Below are positions 1,599-11,490 of a stretch of DNA of 54,463 nucleotides, in pieces. Positions within the stretch are counted from its first letter, which is position 1, and every line of letters starts with the position of its first letter. Made by a program: the position numbers and the translations under genes. This DNA comes from an uncultured Eubacteriales bacterium (lineage in GTDB: Bacteria > Bacillota > Clostridia > Oscillospirales > Acutalibacteraceae), in assembly GCA_900314795.1 (NCBI GenBank), contig OMWP01000011.1, positions 1 to 54,463 of the forward strand, in the 5' to 3' direction. The notes below the pieces were generated by a model that was not told where the DNA came from, searched no databases, and saw only the letters and a program-made list of their open reading frames with translations.

Positions 1599-3359
1599 AT
1601 GTCAGATGATAAAATAAAAGTAGTTGGAACAAACATAAGAGAAAAAGCGACGGTTATTTGGAACGTGGCAAATCATCTGTTTGGATATTTCAAGCCGCAT
1701 GAATACGGATTGGTCATTCTTCCGATGACGGTCGTCAAAAGATTTCACGACTGTCTGTTACCCACATGGCAGGCGGTTCAGGATACATACGAAAAGGTAA
1801 AGCACCTCGCGGTCATCGACGGCTTTCTGACGCAAGCCTCGGGTTATCAGTTCTACAACACAAGCAAGTTCACCTTTGACAAGCTGCTTGCCGATCCCGA
1901 GAACATCGAAGCCAACTTCCGCGACTATCTGGCAGGCTTTTCTTCCAATGTACAAGATGTGCTGTCCAAATTCGATTTTGACACAGTGATCAAGCGCGTA
2001 GTCGAGAGCGGCAGCCTTTATCTTGTAATCAAGGAATTCAACTCACCCAACGGCTATCTCGGTCCCGACAAAATCAGCGCGGTTGACTGCGGCTATATCT
2101 TTGAAGATTTGGTTCGCCGCTTTTCCGAGAGTTTCGGAGAAGAAGCCGGAGCGCATTTTACAAGCCGCGATATCATCTATCTGATGACCGACCTCTTGCT
2201 CTGTGACGCTGATTTATCGCACGACGGAAACATCACCGTCTATGATATGACAATGGGTACCTCTCAGATGCTTTCCTGTATGGAGGAGCGCATCCACGAT
2301 TTCAATAAGAACATTGAAGTAACCTGTTTCGGGCAGGAGTTCAATCCTTCTACCTTTGCAATAGCTAAAGCTGACATGATGATACGCGGCGGCGATCCAA
2401 ACAATATGCGGTTCGGCGACACACTCTCCGATGACAAATTCAGCGGCTACACCTTCCGATACTGTATCTCCAATCCTCCGTTCGGCATCGACTGGAAGCG
2501 CGAGAAATCGGCTGTTGAGAACGAGCATAAAAAGGGCGAACAAGGTCGCTTTTCACCGGGCTTGCCGAAGATTTCCGACGGACAGCAGCTCTTTTTGCTC
2601 AACGGTCTTTCCAAGATGGCTCCCGACGGTAAGATGGCAATCATCCAGAACGGCTCGCCGCTTTTTTCGGGCGACGCCGAGAGCGGTCCCAGTGAGATTC
2701 GCCGCTATGTACTGGAAAACGACTGGCTCGACGCGATCGTACAGCTCAGCACCGACCAGTTTATGAATACGGGTATTTCCACCTATATTTGGGTATGCTC
2801 CAAGAACAAGCCCACCTATCGCGCCGGCAAGGTGCAGTTGATTGACGCGAGCCACTGCTATGAGCCGCGCCGCAAAAGCATCGGTACCAAGCGCAACGAT
2901 ATTACCGACCTTTGCCGCAAATTGATTGTGCAGGCATACGGCGATTTCAAAAATGATGAAATATACGGCGACAAAAACGGCGTGTATTGTCACAGCAAGA
3001 TTTTTAATTCCGAGGAATTCGGCTATTATAAAATCACGGTAGAGCGCCCACAGCGCGACGAAAACGGCGAGATTGTCAAGAAGAAGGGCAAGCCCGTTGC
3101 AGATACCAAGCTCCGCGATACCGAGAACGTGCCCATGACAGACGACATTCAGGCGTATTTTGAGCGCGAGGTACTGCCTTACGCACCCGACGCATGGATA
3201 GACAAGAAGAAAACTAAGGTCGGCTATGAAATCCCCATGACGCGCTATTTCTACGAGTATCAGCCGCCCGAGCCTGTGGAGAGCATTGTTGAGCGTATTA
3301 ATGCTCTCGAACAGGAGATAGCAATCAATCTACAATCACTATTTAGCAAGGAGGAATAA
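1599..3359 (+). CDS. hsdM: Type I restriction-modification system, modification subunit HsdM
   Basis: N6-adenine DNA methyltransferase subunit of a type I complex; with HsdS it methylates the host recognition site using S-adenosylmethionine. At 586 aa it is of usual length. The SAM-binding motif I is the variant YDMTMGTSQML near residue 215, and the catalytic NPPF motif (NPPFGIDW) lies near residue 292. The helical N-terminal HsdM domain precedes them, and the C-terminus carries the helical extension expected to contact HsdS. The ATG follows GGGAG at good distance. It is first in an operon with the small gene at 3362, hsdS, a zinc-ribbon gene and hsdR. Its base composition resembles the chromosome and hsdR, unlike the AT-rich genes between them. 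Confidence 0.95.
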   Translation: MSDDKIKVVGTNIREKATVIWNVANHLFGYFKPHEYGLVILPMTVVKRFHDCLLPTWQAVQDTYEKVKHLAVIDGFLTQASGYQFYNTSKFTFDKLLADPENIEANFRDYLAGFSSNVQDVLSKFDFDTVIKRVVESGSLYLVIKEFNSPNGYLGPDKISAVDCGYIFEDLVRRFSESFGEEAGAHFTSRDIIYLMTDLLLCDADLSHDGNITVYDMTMGTSQMLSCMEERIHDFNKNIEVTCFGQEFNPSTFAIAKADMMIRGGDPNNMRFGDTLSDDKFSGYTFRYCISNPPFGIDWKREKSAVENEHKKGEQGRFSPGLPKISDGQQLFLLNGLSKMAPDGKMAIIQNGSPLFSGDAESGPSEIRRYVLENDWLDAIVQLSTDQFMNTGISTYIWVCSKNKPTYRAGKVQLIDASHCYEPRRKSIGTKRNDITDLCRKLIVQAYGDFKNDEIYGDKNGVYCHSKIFNSEEFGYYKITVERPQRDENGEIVKKKGKPVADTKLRDTENVPMTDDIQAYFEREVLPYAPDAWIDKKKTKVGYEIPMTRYFYEYQPPEPVESIVERINALEQEIAINLQSLFSKEE

Positions 3360-3361
3360 TA

Positions 3362-3700
3362 GTGAAAGACTATTTGCCGTATATTGTTTCTGTTTTAACT
3401 GCTCTCATCTCTTTTTTAGCTTCTTTATGGATAAACAAAAAGAACAATAAAGCTGAAATAGAAAAAATGAAACTTGAACATGAGCAAATAACGGAAAGAA
3501 ATAAACAAGAGCAAGATGCTCGTATTGCTCAACTTGAAAAAGAGTATGCGCTAAAAGCTGGGACTGAAATTGTTACGGATTTTACAAAGCAAACAGTTGA
3601 GGCGTTATACTCAACAGAAACAGTAAAGCAAGAACTCAACAAGCAGACATTTAACTCATTTAAGAATAAAAAGATTAGCGGCAAAGGAAAAAAGAAATGA
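3362..3700 (+). CDS. Small membrane-anchored coiled-coil protein inside the type I R-M operon
   Basis: I do not recognise a family. The 112-aa product starts at GTG behind a strong AAGGAGG, two bases after the hsdM stop, and its end overlaps the hsdS start (ATGA), so it is translationally coupled to both. Residues 4-24 form one hydrophobic segment (YIVSVLTALISFLASLWI). It is followed by a charged, Glu/Lys-rich stretch to about residue 65 with coiled-coil character, and a very basic tail (GKGKKK). It is AT-rich relative to hsdM. It could tether the restriction complex to the membrane or be a small regulator; both are guesses from topology and position. Confidence 0.8.
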   Translation: MKDYLPYIVSVLTALISFLASLWINKKNNKAEIEKMKLEHEQITERNKQEQDARIAQLEKEYALKAGTEIVTDFTKQTVEALYSTETVKQELNKQTFNSFKNKKISGKGKKK

Positions 3701-4989
3701 GATTAATGCAAAACAGCGGGATTGAATGGATTGGCGAGATTCCGAAAGAGTGGACAATAAACTCTATCTCTCAATTGTTTTCACAAGTAAAGAACAAAAA
3801 TACAGATTTGCAAGAAACCAACCTGCTTTCACTTAGCTATGGAAAAATAAAAAGAAAAAACATAGAAACGACAGATGGTTTGTTACCTGAAAGCTTTGAC
3901 GGATATAACATTGTTGAATCGAATGACATAGTGTTGAGATTGACAGACCTACAAAACGACCATAAAAGCTTAAGGGTAGGATTAGTTACTGAAAGAGGTA
4001 TTATTACATCTGCTTATTTGACTATTAGAAACCACAGTGAATCTATAGCTAAATATCTATACTTTTACCTTCATGCATTTGATATTTCAAAAGGCTTTTA
4101 CGGAATGGGAGCAGGAGTGAGACAAGGCTTAAATTGGGATGGAATAAAATGGTTAAAAATACTTTCTCCATCAATTCCAGAACAACAAGCAATTGCCGAC
4201 TTCCTCGTCACCCAATGTGCCCATATTGATTCCGTCATAGAGAAAACCCGCGCCGCTATTGAGGAATACAAGCGGCTGAAACAGTCCGTCATCACCCAAG
4301 CCGTCACCAAAGGCATTCGCCCCAACCGCGAAATGAAAGACAGCGGAATTGAGTGGATTGGGGAAATACCTACGGAGTGGAGATTATCAAAGATAAAAGT
4401 AGGAGTAACAAAAGTTGGTAGTGGTAAAACACCGTCAGGCGGAGCAGATGTTTACTCTGATGAAGGGGTTCTGTTTTTACGAAGTCAAAACATATACGAT
4501 ACAGGACTTATACTTGATCCGCCAACATATATTCCATCTGAAATACATGAAGAAATGAAAAATACGCGTGTTGTACCTAATGATGTTTTGCTGAACATAA
4601 CTGGTGGCTCAATTGGAAGGTGCTGTATTTTTTTATCAGAATTTGCAGAAGCCAATGTTAATCAGCACGTAAGTATAATAAGAGTTATCAAAGATATTTT
4701 TATTCCAGAGTTCATGCATCTATATTGGGTTTCATATCTGGGAAAGATGTCTATTCAACTATATCAAACAGGCGGAAACAGAGAAGGAATGACAGCGGAA
4801 GCAATAAAAAATTCCCCTATCCCAATCCCATCAATACCCGAACAATCCGAAATTGTCGCCTATCTCAACGAAAAAACTGCCGCAATTGATTCTCTTATCC
4901 AAAAGAAAGAACAGCTCATTTCAGAGCTGGAAGCCTATAAAAAATCACTGATTTATGAATATGTTACAGGAAAGAAAGAGGTAAAATAA
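3697..4989 (+). CDS. hsdS: Type I restriction-modification system, specificity subunit HsdS
   Basis: The DNA-recognition subunit, 430 aa, with the classic two-repeat layout. Each half begins with a conserved GIEWIGEIP.EW box (near residues 7 and 218), followed by a target recognition domain. Each ends with an IPEQ..I..(Y/F)L box and a long helical spacer (SVIEKTRAAIEEYKRLKQS, and the SLIQKKEQLISELEAYKKS region). Both recognition domains are AT-rich while the central spacer is GC-richer, a mosaic that suggests exchange of recognition domains. The start overlaps the upstream gene (ATGA), and the next gene follows directly at the stop. Target sequence cannot be predicted here. Confidence 0.95.
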   Translation: MRLMQNSGIEWIGEIPKEWTINSISQLFSQVKNKNTDLQETNLLSLSYGKIKRKNIETTDGLLPESFDGYNIVESNDIVLRLTDLQNDHKSLRVGLVTERGIITSAYLTIRNHSESIAKYLYFYLHAFDISKGFYGMGAGVRQGLNWDGIKWLKILSPSIPEQQAIADFLVTQCAHIDSVIEKTRAAIEEYKRLKQSVITQAVTKGIRPNREMKDSGIEWIGEIPTEWRLSKIKVGVTKVGSGKTPSGGADVYSDEGVLFLRSQNIYDTGLILDPPTYIPSEIHEEMKNTRVVPNDVLLNITGGSIGRCCIFLSEFAEANVNQHVSIIRVIKDIFIPEFMHLYWVSYLGKMSIQLYQTGGNREGMTAEAIKNSPIPIPSIPEQSEIVAYLNEKTAAIDSLIQKKEQLISELEAYKKSLIYEYVTGKKEVK

Positions 4990-5973
4990 GTGATAACAAT
5001 TCCTACTACTGTTCTTGCAGATGAGAACGGATACTATGATAGAGAATGCCCTAATAAAGACTGTCTATACTCTTTCAAGATATTAATGAAAGATTGGAAA
5101 GAAAAAGTATCTGACGACGAAGTCCATTGCCCGATGTGCGGTCATGTAGATTCTTCTGATAAGTGGTGGACTCAATATCAACTTGACCAAATAAGAGAAA
5201 ATGCTGCAAATTATGCAAGAAGTTATATTTTAGGAGAATTAGACAGAACATTTAAGGATTTAGAAAGAAGTACAAGAAGGAATAAATATGTGCGTTTTTC
5301 TTATAAACCAAGCAGCAGAGTGTCGTTTGTAAACAATCCAATTGGGCAGAGTAAAAAATGGGAAACAGAAATATGTTGTGAAAAATGTGGGACACACTAT
5401 AGTGTAATTGGTTCAGCATACTTCTGTCCTTGCTGTGGGTATAATTCTGCTGTTAATTCATTTAACGATTCTTTGGATAGTATACAAAAAATGTTGGAAT
5501 CATTACGTGAAATGAAAGTGCTTTTAATTGATAAATATAACAAAGATACCGCTGAAACTATGTGTAGAAGCCTTCTTGAAAGCAGTATAGGCGATATTGT
5601 ATCAGCATTTCAGAAATTTGCAGCATGCAAATACGAAGAAATAAGCGGAAAGCCAGCACGAGTTAATGATTTTCAGATTGTTGACAAAGGAAGCAATCTA
5701 TTTGAACAGGAAACCGGAAACAAATACAGTGATTGGCTTACCACTTCTGAGTTGGATTTTATGACTATCATGTTCCAGAAAAGACATCTCCTTGAGCACA
5801 ACAATGGCATGGTAGACCAGAAATACATTGATAAGTCCGGAGACACAAGTTACAATTTGGGGCAAAGAATTGTTGTAAAAGAAAAAGACGCTTATACATT
5901 GTTAAATATTATCAGAAAATTAGGGAATGAAATAATCAAATTGAACTCTGGTGGTGAATCAAGTGCCCATTAA
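4990..5973 (+). CDS. Zinc-ribbon protein with HEPN-like C-terminus, between hsdS and hsdR
   Basis: A 327-aa protein starting at GTG immediately after the hsdS stop. Two zinc-ribbon-like Cys clusters are visible: CPNKDC with HCPMCGH (near residues 20 and 46), and CCEKCG with FCPCCGY (near 129 and 145). The C-terminal third is all-helical and contains KRHLLEHNNGMVDQKYI near residue 263. This has an R-x4-H motif followed by the N.G.vd..Y pattern seen in HEPN domains, many of which are RNases. Position between hsdS and hsdR is that of prrC, the HEPN anticodon nuclease of the E. coli prr locus, but the ABC-ATPase part of PrrC is absent. The gene is AT-rich. RNase activity is inference; a structural HEPN domain without catalysis is the alternative. 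Confidence 0.75.
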   Translation: MITIPTTVLADENGYYDRECPNKDCLYSFKILMKDWKEKVSDDEVHCPMCGHVDSSDKWWTQYQLDQIRENAANYARSYILGELDRTFKDLERSTRRNKYVRFSYKPSSRVSFVNNPIGQSKKWETEICCEKCGTHYSVIGSAYFCPCCGYNSAVNSFNDSLDSIQKMLESLREMKVLLIDKYNKDTAETMCRSLLESSIGDIVSAFQKFAACKYEEISGKPARVNDFQIVDKGSNLFEQETGNKYSDWLTTSELDFMTIMFQKRHLLEHNNGMVDQKYIDKSGDTSYNLGQRIVVKEKDAYTLLNIIRKLGNEIIKLNSGGESSAH

Positions 5974-8953
5974 TGAAACCAACGAAAAACGCTTTGAGTC
6001 CGATATTGAATCGGCTCTGCTCTCTCCTGCGGGCGGTTATGTCAAAGGCGAAGATATTTATGACCCCAAGTCCCGACTGTTTGTCGATACGCTGATCGAC
6101 TTTATCCAAAGAACGCAGCCGAAGGAGTGGGTGCGGTTTGCGAATACCAACAAGGTCAATACCATTGAAAAATTCTGCAATTCCTTCAACAACGCATGCG
6201 ATATGTACGGTCTCCTCCATGTTCTGCGCCACGGCTTCAAGCACAGGGGAATCACCTTCCGCGTTTGCTATTTCAAGCCCGAATCCACGCTGAACCAGAC
6301 AGCAGCAACACAGTATGCTGCTAACCATATTGCGGTTTATCGCCAGTGGTATTACAGCAGTGACAGCAAAAAGAGCGTAGATATGGTGCTCGTGCTCAAC
6401 GGTATTCCTGTCTTTGCCTTTGAACTGAAAAATCAGTACACCGGGCAAACAGTAGACAACGCCAAGCGTCAATGGATGTATGACCGCGATCCGCGCGAGC
6501 TCTGCTTTCAATTCAACAAGCGCATTTTAGGTTACTTCGCCGTTGACCACACCGAGGTGTGGATGACAACGCAGCTTGCAGGGAAAAACACTTATTTCCT
6601 GCCGTTCAATCAGGGCAGTAACGGTGCAGGACGTGACGGCGGCAAGGGCAATCCGGCAAACCACGACGGATATCCGACCGCCTATTTGTGGGAACAGGTC
6701 TTTCAAAAAGACAGCATGATGGATATTATCCAAAAATTCATCCATCTGCAAAAGCAGGACGGCAAAAAGCCGCGCCTGATATTTCCTCGTTATCATCAGC
6801 TAGACGTTGTGCGAAAGCTGATTGCCGATGTATCGCAAAACGGTACGGGACAAAACTACCTTATTCAGCACTCCGCAGGCTCGGGCAAATCCAACTCCAT
6901 CGCGTGGACGGCATATCGACTTGCTTCTCTGCATGACAGCGACAACAACGCCGTATTTTCAAGCGTTATTGTCGTTACAGACCGAACCGTCCTCGACGCA
7001 CAGTTGCAAGAGACAATTTCGGGCTTTGACCACACCCTCGGCGCGGTTGAGACAATCGGAGAAAAGAAAACCAGCCGCGACCTGCTCAACGCTGTGAACG
7101 CGGGCGCGAGAATCATTGTCACAACACTGCAAAAATTTCCAGTGATTTATCAGGAGGTTGACAAAGCGAACGGCAGAAACTACGCCGTAATCGTTGACGA
7201 AGCACACTCCTCCCAGACGGGAACTTCCGCTCTGAAATTAAAAGCCGCCCTTGCCGACACCGAGGACGCGCTGCGTGAGTATGCGGAAATCGAGGGCAAA
7301 GCTGAGGCTGAGGTTGACCCGGAGGATAAACTCGTTCGTGAGCTTATCACACATGGAAAGCACAAGAATCTTAGCTTCTTTGCCTTTACAGCTACGCCAA
7401 AAGGAACTACTCTTGAAATGTTTGGAACAGAGTACGAGGACGGCAGTTTTCATCCATTCCATATATATAGTATGCGGCAGGCTATCGAGGAAGGATTCAT
7501 CCTTGATGTTTTGCAAAACTATATGACTTATAATACCTGCTTTAAAATAGCGAAAACTATCGAGGATAACCCTGACGTACCGGCAAGCCGTGCGGCAAAG
7601 CTGATCCGCAAGTTCGAGCAGTTGCATCCCTATAACATCAGTCAAAAGGCGAAAATTATCGTTGAAACCTATCTCAGCACCACACGCTATAAAATCGGTG
7701 GCAAGGGTAAGATGATGGTTATTACTTCCTCTCGTCTAGCTGCGGTGCGCTATTATCATGAGTGCAAACGCTATATCGAGGAACAGGGCTATGATGATAT
7801 CGGCGTTCTGGTAGCGTTCTCCGGCGCGGTTAATGACGGCGGCGAGGAATACACCGAACCCAAGCTGAACGTCCGTGCTGACGGCTCACATATCGGTGAA
7901 TCGCAGACAAAAGCGGAGTTCCACGAGAATTTCCATGTGTTGATTGTCGCAGAGAAGTATCAGACAGGCTTTGACGAGCCGCTACTGCATACGATGATTG
8001 TAGATAAAAAGCTCCGCGGCGTAAAGGCGGTGCAGACGCTTTCTCGACTCAACCGCACCTGCCCGGGCAAGATTGACACATTTGTGCTTGACTTCATCAA
8101 TACACAAGAAGAAATACAGGATGCGTTTCAGCCCTTCTATCAGGAAACCATGCTTGAAAAAGAGGTCAACGCTGATCTGCTTTATCAGGTACAGCATGAG
8201 CTGCGCGGTTACGCTGTTTATTCCGTTGACGACGTAAACGCTTTCTGCGATGAGTATTTCAAGGACGGCAATCAGGATGATCGCGCGATGGGTCGCATGA
8301 CGAGCGTTTTGAAGCCGGTCGCCGACAGGTATAACGATTTGTCAGCCGACGAGCGGTATCAGTTCAGAAGACTTTGCCGCAGCCTGAAAAAGTGGTATGG
8401 CTACATTTCTCAGGTCGTGCGCATGTTTGACGTTGAACTGCACAAGGAGTATGTGTTTATCTGTTATCTTCTCGGACTGCTGCCGCCCGGCGAGATCGAA
8501 AAGCTCGACCTTGACGGCAAATTGAAGCTCGAATACTACAAGCTGCAAAAGACCTTTGAGGGCGAAATCAAACTGAAAAAGGAAACCGGCACTTTTACTC
8601 CGGCAACAGCCAAGGGCGCGACCAAGCCCGAGGAAAAAGAACCGCTCGACGAGATCATCGATAAAATCAACGAGCAGTACAAGGGTATTTTCACCGACGC
8701 TGACAGAGTGATGGTAGACGTGCTCAAAACCGTCCTCATGCGCGACGAGCACCTGAAACGAAATGCCAAGACCTCTGACCCGAGGATATTTGCGGAGAGT
8801 ATCTTTCCCAAAGCGTTTGGCACTGCCGCACAGAACAGCTATATGGAATCGCAGGACGCTTTTTCTTCGTTATTTGCCAATCAAGCCAAATACAACGCGA
8901 TCATGCATGCACTTAGTTCGATTATTTATCGGGAAATGAGGACGGGGCAATGA
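5963..8953 (+). CDS. hsdR: Type I restriction endonuclease, HsdR motor/nuclease subunit
   Basis: ATP-driven translocase and endonuclease of the type I complex, about 996 aa. The N-terminal PD-(D/E)XK nuclease shows VDMVLVLNGIPVFAFELK (catalytic D, E and K near residues 140-155). The SF2 motor follows: Walker A HSAGSGKS near 302, DEAH box VDEAHSSQ near 410, motif III FTATPKG near 474, and the second RecA lobe with the QTLSRLNRTC motif VI. The GTG at 5963 gives the family N-terminus (MPINETNEKRF); GTGs at 5951 and 5954 are in frame alternatives. It overlaps the previous gene by about 11 bases. All motifs are intact, so the system should be able to cut. Confidence 0.95.
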   Translation: MPINETNEKRFESDIESALLSPAGGYVKGEDIYDPKSRLFVDTLIDFIQRTQPKEWVRFANTNKVNTIEKFCNSFNNACDMYGLLHVLRHGFKHRGITFRVCYFKPESTLNQTAATQYAANHIAVYRQWYYSSDSKKSVDMVLVLNGIPVFAFELKNQYTGQTVDNAKRQWMYDRDPRELCFQFNKRILGYFAVDHTEVWMTTQLAGKNTYFLPFNQGSNGAGRDGGKGNPANHDGYPTAYLWEQVFQKDSMMDIIQKFIHLQKQDGKKPRLIFPRYHQLDVVRKLIADVSQNGTGQNYLIQHSAGSGKSNSIAWTAYRLASLHDSDNNAVFSSVIVVTDRTVLDAQLQETISGFDHTLGAVETIGEKKTSRDLLNAVNAGARIIVTTLQKFPVIYQEVDKANGRNYAVIVDEAHSSQTGTSALKLKAALADTEDALREYAEIEGKAEAEVDPEDKLVRELITHGKHKNLSFFAFTATPKGTTLEMFGTEYEDGSFHPFHIYSMRQAIEEGFILDVLQNYMTYNTCFKIAKTIEDNPDVPASRAAKLIRKFEQLHPYNISQKAKIIVETYLSTTRYKIGGKGKMMVITSSRLAAVRYYHECKRYIEEQGYDDIGVLVAFSGAVNDGGEEYTEPKLNVRADGSHIGESQTKAEFHENFHVLIVAEKYQTGFDEPLLHTMIVDKKLRGVKAVQTLSRLNRTCPGKIDTFVLDFINTQEEIQDAFQPFYQETMLEKEVNADLLYQVQHELRGYAVYSVDDVNAFCDEYFKDGNQDDRAMGRMTSVLKPVADRYNDLSADERYQFRRLCRSLKKWYGYISQVVRMFDVELHKEYVFICYLLGLLPPGEIEKLDLDGKLKLEYYKLQKTFEGEIKLKKETGTFTPATAKGATKPEEKEPLDEIIDKINEQYKGIFTDADRVMVDVLKTVLMRDEHLKRNAKTSDPRIFAESIFPKAFGTAAQNSYMESQDAFSSLFANQAKYNAIMHALSSIIYREMRTGQ

Positions 8954-9086
8954 TTTTGTTTAAATTGAGTAGGATTACTAGTCCTGGTTATCCATATGAC
9001 TTTTCATATGAAGAAATTTAGGGGATTTTCCGTTCTTCATAAAATTAGAATAATTGCATTCAGCACAGATGACTGAAGGAATAAAT

Positions 9087-10409
9087 ATGGAATTATCAAA
9101 AGAGTTCTTGGAACTTATTGGTTCAGTTATAAATTCGGACGAATTCAAAAAAACCAATTATTATTTACGTTGTCTTAAAAAGGCTCCGCACGGTGGAGTA
9201 TTTCATATCAAACATCCCAATATATTTATTAAGTATTATCGATGCCAAACAGAATACTATTTGAGAAAAGGATACAACGTACCGTATCCGGTTGAACAGT
9301 TTATTCCGAGGATAATGAACGCTTTTTCATCATCTGGTATTAATCAGGAAGAATTGCTGAAATTCTGTTTTGCTGTTGATTTGGATAATAAGAGTGACCC
9401 GGTATTTGGTGAACGGTTTGGTGGTTACAAATGTCTATTCGCTATGAGTAGCGGAACATTAACGCCTATCAACCCTGAAAGCCATGCAGAAGCAATTATA
9501 GGGGAAGCTGTATACGGAAATATTCCTTTCTCCGGGAATTTCATAGTCGATGAAGAACGTTTGGCAAAAGTTTTTTATTGTTTTTTGGTTATGCTAAACA
9601 TAAAGCCATTTGAAACAATACAAGATATACTAAGTGTTGAAGAACTTGTTAGTGGACATGATAAGTATGGCTTAACTGATGTCACTAATGCTGTTTTTTC
9701 ACGACAAGGTTTCTTACTAAAGGATACATTCTATCTTTATAGCTTGTTTCTTGATACTTCTATATGCAGTTTGCGTTTTGAAAAGCCAGCCATAATTGAT
9801 GTTTTTCAGAGTATTCAGTCTAAAAATTTGCGTATTTTTATGCGTCTCGATAAAACACTTGCTGTTCCCAAAAACTGTATGATTACTACAGCAACTATAG
9901 ATATGCAGAAATGGCGTGGAATAACTTTTGACTTCTCAGATTTAAAAGCGATATTCAAGGAAAAACACGTTACAATTCACTTTGCACCTGATACACTACA
10001 CAAACTACTTATTGTAATTACACCTAATACAGATTCCACAGGAAGAGACTTCCTCAACATTACCGTAGAACAGTTGTGGAATCCTGAAAGAATATGTAAA
10101 GATGATAGCATTATTATAACAAACTTTGTACATGGCTGTTATTATTCTGACGTTAACAGCTTTGACCACATTGATTTCTCTGTCAATCAGTACAAACGTG
10201 ATGATTATATATTGAAATATGCGGATGCATACAATGATTCAGGTGTATCCATAGAAAAATATGCAGACGAGCATTATAAAGTGTGGTGTATAAAAGGAAA
10301 TACTATTGATTTTGAAGCTTGGGCAAAGCTCGTGTATTATACACTTGACGAACCTTTTCGGGATTTGTTCTTAGAAATGACATGCATTAAAACAATAGAA
10401 AACAAATAA
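9087..10409 (+). CDS. Protein of unknown function downstream of hsdR
   Basis: A 440-aa protein I cannot assign. ATG at 9087 is chosen over an in-frame TTG at 9054 because AAGGA lies at the right distance. No signal peptide, membrane segment or known motif is evident; it has aromatic-rich strands such as NYYLRCL and IFIKYYRC and a predicted mixed alpha/beta content. The coding sequence is markedly AT-rich, like the accessory genes inside the hsd operon and unlike hsdM/hsdR. It ends at a terminator that also closes the island cargo. A link to the restriction system (defence accessory or unrelated cargo) is inferred from position only; a 130-base gap separates it from hsdR. Confidence 0.75.
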   Translation: MELSKEFLELIGSVINSDEFKKTNYYLRCLKKAPHGGVFHIKHPNIFIKYYRCQTEYYLRKGYNVPYPVEQFIPRIMNAFSSSGINQEELLKFCFAVDLDNKSDPVFGERFGGYKCLFAMSSGTLTPINPESHAEAIIGEAVYGNIPFSGNFIVDEERLAKVFYCFLVMLNIKPFETIQDILSVEELVSGHDKYGLTDVTNAVFSRQGFLLKDTFYLYSLFLDTSICSLRFEKPAIIDVFQSIQSKNLRIFMRLDKTLAVPKNCMITTATIDMQKWRGITFDFSDLKAIFKEKHVTIHFAPDTLHKLLIVITPNTDSTGRDFLNITVEQLWNPERICKDDSIIITNFVHGCYYSDVNSFDHIDFSVNQYKRDDYILKYADAYNDSGVSIEKYADEHYKVWCIKGNTIDFEAWAKLVYYTLDEPFRDLFLEMTCIKTIENK

Positions 10410-10522: not shown

Positions 10523-10879
10523 TTAGGTGTAGACAATCTCTCTGTTGACGATTTCGGCGGCTGTAAGGCGGATAGCGTTCATTTTACGCGCCCATTCAAC
10601 TGGGTTATCTGCTTTTAGCTGTTCGGTGATGGTTTCCTTTTCGGAAAGCTGACGGACAAGCAAATCGTACATTTCATTTGCCTGCTCATCAATATCGGCG
10701 AGATATGCTGCGAGCTTGCATGAAGTGAGCAGGTTGAAATAGATAAGCTTGTGGTGCTCTTGCAGATAACGCTTGTGCCTTTGTCCGAAAACGCCGATTG
10801 TGATCTTCGGATGCTCGGGCAACTGAAGATCGGGCAGAAGATAATCGCCCTGTTGTGTATATGTAATGGATGTTGCCAT
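10523..10879 (-). CDS. tnpV: TnpV-like transposon-encoded protein
   Basis: The 118-aa sequence has the TnpV pattern known from Tn4451-type and other Clostridial mobile elements: YTQQGDYLLPDL at the start, IGVFGQRHKRYLQEH, the block LLTSCKLAAYLADIDEQA, and a terminal helix ending IVNREIVYT. TnpV proteins are carried by integrative and mobilisable elements; their role is not established. It is last of three closely packed leftward genes. No integrase, relaxase or transposase accompanies it, so the trio looks like a remnant or a domesticated module left beside tRNA-Leu. Confidence 0.85.
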   Translation of the reverse strand: MATSITYTQQGDYLLPDLQLPEHPKITIGVFGQRHKRYLQEHHKLIYFNLLTSCKLAAYLADIDEQANEMYDLLVRQLSEKETITEQLKADNPVEWARKMNAIRLTAAEIVNREIVYT

Positions 10880-10882
10880 AAT

Positions 10883-11062
10883 TCAGACCTCCCTAATCTT
10901 GATTTTATTAATCTTTGCCTTTGTGAGCTTGATTATCAGTTCGTCAACAGCGTCAGAGTATTTGCCTCGCGTTACAAGATCGTTTTTCAAAAAAATCAGG
11001 CTGTTAACAATGGTACGCCTTTCATCACGCGTTAGATACAGATGATACTTTTGACTTCTCAT
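10883..11062 (-). CDS. Small conserved protein of TnpV-type mobile modules
   Basis: A 59-aa gene between tnpV and the DUF6809 gene. It begins MRSQKYHLYLTRDERRTIV and continues with SLIFLKNDLVTRGKYSDAVDELIIK before a basic tail. Small proteins of this form (Y.L.LT.dErr.ii.SLi.lrN.Li..GryTDaVDe) recur next to tnpV in Clostridial elements; I know no function. Its ATG overlaps the stop of the upstream gene (ATGA), and its stop lies three bases before the tnpV start. The packing and family resemblance make it a real gene despite its size. Confidence 0.8.
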   Translation of the reverse strand: MRSQKYHLYLTRDERRTIVNSLIFLKNDLVTRGKYSDAVDELIIKLTKAKINKIKIREV

Positions 11063-11367
11063 TTGCTCTGCTCCTTTAAGAAATCCTCATACGGCGTGTC
11101 GTCATTTACAAAAGTATCGTAAATAATCCTTGCGCCTAATCTAAATCCAACGATGAAGCTGTCGAGCTCCGATTCTCCCAAAATGATATCGGAAGCGTTA
11201 ACGAAGGAGAGAAATGCTTCTTTTTCTGCTCCTGAGAGTTTTTCGGTAAGCATAGCCTCGCTTTCCGAAAGAACAGCAATTTGCTTTTTCAAAAAACTGC
11301 CATTCTTGAATCCGCGCGCCTGCGGGTCAATGTTTCCGTAGTACAGTTCCGAAATTACATTTTTCAT
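11059..11367 (-). CDS. DUF6809-like small protein of a mobile module
   Basis: A 102-aa protein, mainly helical, with the pattern MKNVISELYYGNIDPQARGF near its start and a conserved acidic C-terminus. It matches proteins annotated DUF6809 that travel with tnpV. The ATG at 11367 is chosen because GGAGG lies 8 bases upstream; an in-frame ATG at 11397 has no such site. It is first of three overlapping or abutting leftward genes (this one, the 59-aa gene, tnpV). Function unknown. Confidence 0.8.
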   Translation of the reverse strand: MKNVISELYYGNIDPQARGFKNGSFLKKQIAVLSESEAMLTEKLSGAEKEAFLSFVNASDIILGESELDSFIVGFRLGARIIYDTFVNDDTPYEDFLKEQSK

Positions 11368-11490
11368 TCTAATGACCTCCAATATTAGATTTGTCAAACA
11401 AACGATTCAGTGAATTAAGGTCATTTTTCTTTAATTGACAGCACTTTTTAGCTGTCCGGTCTATATGTTTTCACGAAAAATCTATGTTTT

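Follow-up and report, generated by a model that had tools for sequence, protein, structure and literature searches.

A zinc-ribbon/HEPN protein encoded between hsdS and hsdR: a predicted mobile antiphage RNase in a variable slot of type I restriction-modification operons

The operon and the coupling of its genes

The stretch of DNA analyzed here (54,463 nucleotides, hereafter the window) carries on its forward strand a type I restriction-modification (R-M) operon, as indicated by the presence of hsdM, hsdS and hsdR in Pfam and PADLOC searches. The methyltransferase gene hsdM (1599..3359) matches the Pfam families N6_Mtase and HsdM_N and the PADLOC profile MTase_I (E 3e-221), the specificity subunit gene hsdS (3697..4989) matches Methylase_S and Specificity_I (E 3e-100), and the restriction subunit gene hsdR (5951..8953) contains HSDR_N, SWI2_SNF2 and T1R_D3-like regions, with a match to TIGR00348 that lies below the cut-off of that model. 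Between hsdS and hsdR, on the same strand, is an intact open frame with a GTG start (4990..5973) that codes for a protein of 327 amino acids, which we term the zinc-ribbon/HEPN protein. An earlier reading of this DNA, made without database searches (the sequence-only reading), had given the order as hsdM, hsdS, this gene and hsdR; that order is real, but it omitted a small ORF of 112 amino acids between hsdM and hsdS (3362..3700, forward strand), which has a hydrophobic N-terminus as judged by eye and a single, weak PADLOC match to RTasSLATT (E 3.5e-4).

The gene is coupled to both of its neighbors, just as that reading had held. The hsdS stop codon ends at position 4989 and the zinc-ribbon/HEPN gene follows from 4990 with no gap, while the hsdR frame can start from a GTG at 5951, 5954 or 5963, all of which lie inside the zinc-ribbon/HEPN gene, 23 to 11 nucleotides before it ends. 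Reading of the junctions further points to AAAGAGGT in the 3' end of hsdS (4975..4982, forward strand) as a likely ribosome-binding sequence that would serve the inserted gene, with AGAGG at 4977-4981 suitably spaced to its start.

Beyond hsdR lies a gene for a 451-residue protein (9054-10409) with no match at E<=1 in Pfam, PADLOC or NCBIfam. Further downstream of the hsd locus are genes for TnpV and DUF6809 proteins (10523-10879 and 11059-11397, both on the reverse strand). The same pair is found at another locus with a zinc-ribbon/HEPN gene, L005, there upstream of the hsd locus, and a TnpV gene also lies near a PDC-M14A/B gene pair (see below) at locus L044. This recurrence suggests a common mobile-element background.

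The N-terminal half: a double zinc ribbon related to PDC-M14A

The N-terminal half of the protein has four pairs of cysteines, namely C20/C25 (with four residues between them), C47/C50, C130/C133 and C146/C149, consistent with the two zinc ribbons that had been recognized from the sequence alone. The first ribbon, formed by C20/C25 and C47/C50 (5047..5139, forward strand), is part of a region spanning residues 6-152 that matches the PADLOC profile PDC-M14A (PDLC04447) with E 3.7e-19 over profile positions 8-150 of 152, which identifies it as an M14A double zinc-ribbon domain. The second ribbon, formed by C130/C133 and C146/C149 (5377..5436, forward strand), is invariant in all 16 rows of our alignment of the family (alignment A8). 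In the same alignment the first-ribbon cysteines are mostly gone from two alphaproteobacterial copies (L021 and L022), and a divergent Pseudomonas protein that has the RNase motif described below (L006) is devoid of CxxC pairs. A single-sequence search of the PDB recovered only three ribosomal zinc proteins, at E 0.23 or worse.

Five other loci (L025 and L044-L047) have a separate gene for an M14A-type zinc protein that adjoins one for PDC-M14B, the two genes being divergently oriented in L045. PADLOC confirmed all three of the M14A proteins given to it (L025, L044 and L045) and all five M14B proteins; in L046 and L047 the M14A-type gene was recognized from our A1 profile only. PADLOC found no M14B among the six proteins of the window scanned. 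The possibility that the HEPN half is itself a version of PDC-M14B was rejected upon comparison with hhalign (probability 0.2%).

The C-terminal half: a predicted HEPN domain with a conserved RNase motif

Structure prediction points to a HEPN domain in residues 153-316 (5446..5937, forward strand). AlphaFold2 modeled residues 153-327 from 10 sequences with a pLDDT of 92.0 and a pTM of 0.86; the model of the whole protein from seven sequences had a pLDDT of 68.3, the C-terminal helices being better. In Foldseek searches with the whole-protein model the first six ranks were all taken by HEPN/HepT toxins (best E 0.067). With the model of residues 153-327, nine of the 10 best PDB matches were HEPN/HepT toxins (probability 0.82-0.98, E 0.14-0.31), which by their titles represent about three different toxins and have TM-scores of 0.37-0.56; the odd one among the ten was 5m4y, at a probability of 0.41. 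As neither model gave a match with E below 0.001, the HEPN assignment rests jointly on the ranking, the probabilities and the motif. Within these bounds the fold expected by the sequence-only reading was recovered, and the C-terminal half is, by prediction, a HEPN domain.

The putative active site is the motif R265-H266-x3-H270-N-x-G273-x-x-D276-x-x-Y279 (5782..5826, forward strand). Its arginine and histidine had been noticed from the sequence alone, but with the numbering off by one (R264 and H269 for what are R265 and H270), and they pass the check for conservation that this reading had proposed: R265, H266, H270, G273 and D276 are invariant in all 16 aligned copies, at a mean column identity of 40%. 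The invariance of R265, H266 and H270 against this background fits a catalytic site. The pattern R-x4-H-x5-D-x2-[YF] is likewise found in eight of eight further relatives, for some of them partly by construction of the search, since L026, L027, L053 and probably L006 were retrieved with a pattern derived from the motif. R-x4-H alone was dropped as evidence of a HEPN domain, being too common (18 matches among the 15,527 amino acids of 48 window ORFs), while R-x4-H-[NQS]-x-G occurs there once. Pfam searches with 12 members, i.e. the window protein and 11 relatives, found no HEPN family at E<=0.1, HEPN_Apea included, and among the matches of a profile search against PDB sequences zinc-ribbon proteins predominated and HEPN proteins were absent. 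A match to a Pfam-type profile is not a defining trait of the diverse HEPN superfamily. Among five pairs of relatives, dN/dS was 0.13 for L026/L051 and 0.025 for L002/L004, the latter with dS saturated at 2.1; the other three pairs gave no dS.

Distribution and genomic contexts of the family

The zinc-ribbon/HEPN family is rare and scattered. Relatives were found at five loci in genome contigs, in 19 plasmid records, in viral contigs and in E. coli. Full-length matches came from one of 300 genomes of the window's family (its own; three others had partial matches), one of 394 genomes of its order (its own; two partial), two of 398 genomes of its phylum (its own and G559; 13 others partial) and one of 299 genomes of the family of G002 (G002 itself, previously known; one partial). 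At least seven of 5426 E. coli genomes carry the gene, a lower bound that comes from a DNA search with one query and covers seven of the eight places matched in these records. Of the plasmid records 13 are conjugative or mobilizable and six are neither; the plasmid matches H17-H19 cover the zinc half only, and the neighborhoods of H18 and H19 were left out. The window protein alone as a query recovered no viral contig, while further searches found copies there, among them L026 and L051, both P2-like contigs from IMG/VR that carry an Ogr/Delta gene. A place for the gene among phage records was rejected (no match in 50,697 of them), though these two contigs carry it.

After counting repeated alleles once (E. 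coli, seven records, the contexts of all seven being covered; Sinorhizobium meliloti, five records, two covered; Methylocystis, two records, both covered) and excluding the divergent L006 and L027 and the fragment L024, we obtained 20 distinct loci. These are the window, L002, L003, L004, L005, L043, E. coli, L016 (Aliarcobacter), L017 (Sinorhizobium), L018 (Phaeobacter), L019 (Emticicia), L020 (Miltoncostaea), L021 (Novosphingobium), L022 (Marinibacterium), L026, L051, L053, L092 (Sulfitobacter), L093 (Roseovarius) and L023/L094 (Methylocystis). The contexts covered at most 3-15 kb from the gene, and less at the ends of contigs or records (L004, L026, L053 and L093); for several loci the identity of the neighbors comes from annotation or visual inspection.

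Only two of these 20 loci, the window and L005, have hsd genes, and in both the gene lies between hsdS and hsdR. This count comes from tblastn with HsdM, HsdS and HsdR queries from the window, L005, L082 and L089 at E<=1e-5, which can miss distant R-M genes: it passed over an N6-methylase with a Pfam HSDR_N domain in L003, about 2.7 kb upstream of the gene with other genes between, a locus we did not score as hsd-embedded. Hence hsd linkage is not a property of the family, and as a family-defining trait it was rejected. The recurrence between hsdS and hsdR that the sequence-only reading anticipated has for the most part failed to appear, though the two cases found look like independent insertions.

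The other neighbors frequently belong to known or candidate defense systems. In E. coli the same SIR2 gene lies upstream in all seven records and an integrase gene adjoins the copies. That SIR2 protein, in L048 (13551-14858), has a partial PADLOC match to PDC-S25 (E 8.7e-30), and a SIR2 protein in the P2-like contig L051 (1175-2671) matches PDC-S25 over its whole length (E 2e-154); the combination of SIR2 (PDC-S25) and the zinc-ribbon/HEPN gene is a recurring pair that merits testing. On the Sinorhizobium plasmid a PifA-type KAP NTPase is encoded directly upstream (L017 6694-8925; PDLC02361, E 6.9e-258). L002 has DrmA, DrmB and Vsr as neighbors, i.e. a DISARM-type locus; in L043 the gene is flanked by an AlwI endonuclease and a D12 methylase to one side and by GajA/GajB (Gabija) to the other; AbiH is near the Roseovarius copy (L093), a phospholipase-D-like gene is near that in L016, and an HTH-peptidase gene and a DUF4238 gene are near that in L003. 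At L018-L022 no recognized defense gene adjoins, as judged from annotation or, in the unannotated L021, from open frames by eye, so that a defense function rests on association.

The hsdS-hsdR slot as a variable site with many tenants

The slot between hsdS and hsdR was surveyed in 250 genomes of one family, 15 of which, the window's own included, had an HsdR relative with E<=1e-100. The 14 genomes besides the window's own contributed 15 loci; no hsdS was found in L080, which hence stands outside the slot count, and the remaining 14 have a recognizable hsdS. Counting ORFs of 70 amino acids or more, the slot is empty, with hsdS adjoining hsdR, in seven of the 14 (L075, L079, L082, L084, L086, L087 and L088) and filled by other genes in the other seven. 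Its contents are genes for DUF4238 and FRG proteins in L076, an ApeA-like HEPN in L077 (HEPN_Apea, narrowly missing the Pfam cut-off at E 1.1e-4), a 210-residue protein without Pfam match and a 75-residue ORF in L078, an FRG protein in L081, a TIR protein of 248 amino acids in L083 (2977-3723, reverse strand), a 224-residue protein without Pfam match in L085 and a DUF2971-like protein just under the cut-off in L089. L083 has its TIR gene where L082, with a 94% identical HsdR, has an empty slot. With half of the slots empty and half occupied by different genes, the window gene is one among many tenants of the hsdS-hsdR slot. The L077 slot gene was considered as a close relative of the window gene and rejected (probability 0.5%, from a single-sequence row), Pfam marking it as ApeA-like.

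A second variable slot lies between hsdM and hsdS, where relatives have differing small ORFs or, in L085, a DUF2971 gene; examples are the window (3362-3700), L076 (3473-3847), L005 (5735-6109), L078 (reverse complement), L081 and L085.

The window's HsdR is closest to that of L075, with 84% identity. There hsdS runs directly into hsdR with a similar tail sequence, and AAGGAGGT stands at the corresponding place ahead of hsdR. Hence, in the window a gene occupies the slot that stands vacant in L075. The HsdR of L005, in turn, is 98% identical to that of L076, where the slot holds the DUF4238 and FRG genes, and 76% identical to that of the window, whereas its zinc-ribbon/HEPN protein is 83% identical to the copy in the DISARM-type locus L002 and 65% identical to the window copy. 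In the tree the window copy groups with L043, with a support of 88/97 only on a branch that is not starred, and with long branches elsewhere. Since the HsdR and the zinc-ribbon/HEPN protein of L005 have different closest relatives, two separate arrivals in the hsdS-hsdR slot appear to be the simplest reading, although an older resident of the slot may have been replaced.

Functional implications

The architecture of the protein, its conservation, its position and spread and the occupied and empty slots are established by sequence comparison, while its HEPN fold and active-site residues are predicted. From these we infer, at a probability of about 0.68, that the gene codes for a mobile, self-contained RNase of the abortive-infection type parked in the hsdS-hsdR cargo slot. 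It would be an antiphage protein that spreads horizontally, in which a double zinc ribbon akin to PDC-M14A at the N-terminus is joined to a HEPN endoribonuclease domain at the C-terminus. Detection of infection, or binding of nucleic acid, would fall to the zinc-ribbon half, which would also hold the enzyme in check; once triggered, the HEPN domain would cut RNA, be it host tRNA or mRNA or phage RNA, thereby halting phage production. By insertion into the hsdS-hsdR slot it would make use of the operon transcript and of the likely ribosome-binding sequence within the hsdS 3' end, and its RNase activity and antiphage function would probably be independent of the R-M enzyme.

The sequence-only reading had favored instead a guard resembling PrrC, in which HsdM, HsdS and HsdR would keep the HEPN RNase silent until the restriction enzyme is inhibited by a phage. 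In such a guard the zinc ribbons would assume the docking or sensing role of the PrrC ATPase. The coupled position between hsdS and hsdR, the two apparently independent entries into this slot and the ApeA-like HEPN (L077) and TIR gene (L083) in the same slot of relatives are consistent with such a guard, as is the published proposal of PrrC-like regulation for R-M-linked HEPN domains, at least 16 clades of which were described in 2013 (PMC3710099); in light of that proposal, to call the arrangement a new version of PrrC was too strong. However, no hsd gene surrounds the relative at 18 of the 20 distinct loci, within the limited flanks, and silencing by the Hsd proteins therefore cannot be the rule for the family. 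Moreover, the hsd-embedded L005 protein (322 amino acids) has no added part when compared with its DISARM-linked, 83% identical counterpart in L002 (318 amino acids), and for TgvAB, another defense system embedded in such an operon, protection does not require restriction by HsdR (PMC11411939), so that embedding does not imply guarding. The predicted fold and the conserved arginine and histidine of the guard reading stand and the hsd linkage for the most part does not; for the window copy a guard mechanism is possible, if unlikely, yet it is not a rule of the family, and Hsd silencing is not needed to explain the zinc-ribbon/HEPN proteins.

Another conceivable role is that of a HEPN toxin with a neighboring antitoxin, comparable to HepT-MntA, given that the nearest experimental structures belong to HepT/HEPN toxins from pairs of this type and that free-standing PDC-M14A is paired with PDC-M14B (e.g. 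in L025 and L044). We regard this as very improbable: Pfam found no nucleotidyltransferase (MNT antitoxin) domain in the seven window proteins scanned, the neighbors vary across most loci, and L018 and L019 have no same-strand gene within 400 bp. Zinc ribbons can bind nucleic acid. This could apply to the N-terminal half, and with the existence of non-catalytic HEPN domains (PMC3710099) it would allow an RNA-binding or adaptor protein that regulates a neighboring system; little credence is due to that, too, as R265 and the two histidines of the motif do not vary in an alignment whose columns average 40% identity, which fits a catalytic site.

Under the preferred reading of a self-contained mobile RNase, a widely scattered family joins the set of predicted RNA-cutting defenses and the candidate PDC-M14A domain gains a second partner. 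That the gene occurs both apart from hsd operons and, in two cases, inside them amounts to a natural experiment, and comparison of the two situations would separate guards from passengers. A more far-reaching and rather doubtful proposal is that PDC-M14A is a plug-in infection sensor with varied effectors, namely the HEPN RNase and M14B, and that the HEPN form, once in the hsdS-hsdR slot, falls under control of the type I enzyme; it would then be an ATPase-free analog of PrrC, derived on two or more occasions from a defense gene that stood alone.

Comparison with known systems

The N-terminal half resembles M14A of PDC-M14, a candidate two-gene system of PADLOC (M14A and M14B), but there M14A stands as its own gene beside M14B, to which the HEPN half described here is unrelated. 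HepT proteins have the motif R-x4-H-x-Y. One PDB title among the Foldseek matches of the HepT type names H107A-Y109F. With the HepT/HEPN toxins of MNT-HEPN pairs (PDB 5yep, 7bxo, 7ae6 and 7ae8) the protein shares the predicted fold and R-x4-H; unlike them it has an added zinc-ribbon half and N-x-G-x-x-D after the histidine. No paper was found on PDC-M14 or on the four protein accessions searched for, the search covering few subscription papers and only those bioRxiv preprints present in PMC.

ApeA and other R-M-linked HEPNs (PMC3710099, Table 1) likewise have genes embedded in R-M operons, and zinc-ribbon fusions are listed in that paper for DUF4145, EC042_2821 and Npun_R5629; the protein studied here is set apart from ApeA and the other HEPN families in Pfam by having no match to them at the threshold given above. 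DarTG2 and TgvAB (PMC12255303 and PMC11411939) are also defense genes within a type I operon, DarTG2 indeed between hsdS and hsdR, but these are other enzymes and experimentally tested, while the present gene is known from sequence. Related settings include rloA/rloB within a Campylobacter hsd locus (PMC2928727), the P2 and P4 hotspots of defense genes, HEPN being one of the domains named for the latter (PMC9122126), and a set of 21 new systems, seven of them in P2-like prophages and six with remote HEPN similarity (PMC9519451). Zinc ribbons and HEPN domains have also been reported from McrBC-type systems, the protein described here not being among them in the passages concerned (PMC11090510).

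Lastly, PrrC, the anticodon nuclease of the EcoPrrI type Ic operon, which has been discussed as a guard (PMC12707154), also has a C-terminal HEPN domain, and its gene lies within a type I R-M operon, as do the window and L005 copies. The zinc-ribbon/HEPN protein is set apart from it by architecture, with zinc ribbons replacing the N-terminal ABC ATPase: as the sequence-only reading had correctly stated, the ATPase is missing, with no ATPase match in Pfam, PADLOC or NCBIfam across the 327 residues and weak matches only to PADLOC LmuB (0.0026) and NCBIfam ASRP (0.04). Most of its relatives, moreover, are outside hsd operons. The family is new, whereas its type of enzyme and its type of genomic location are each already known.
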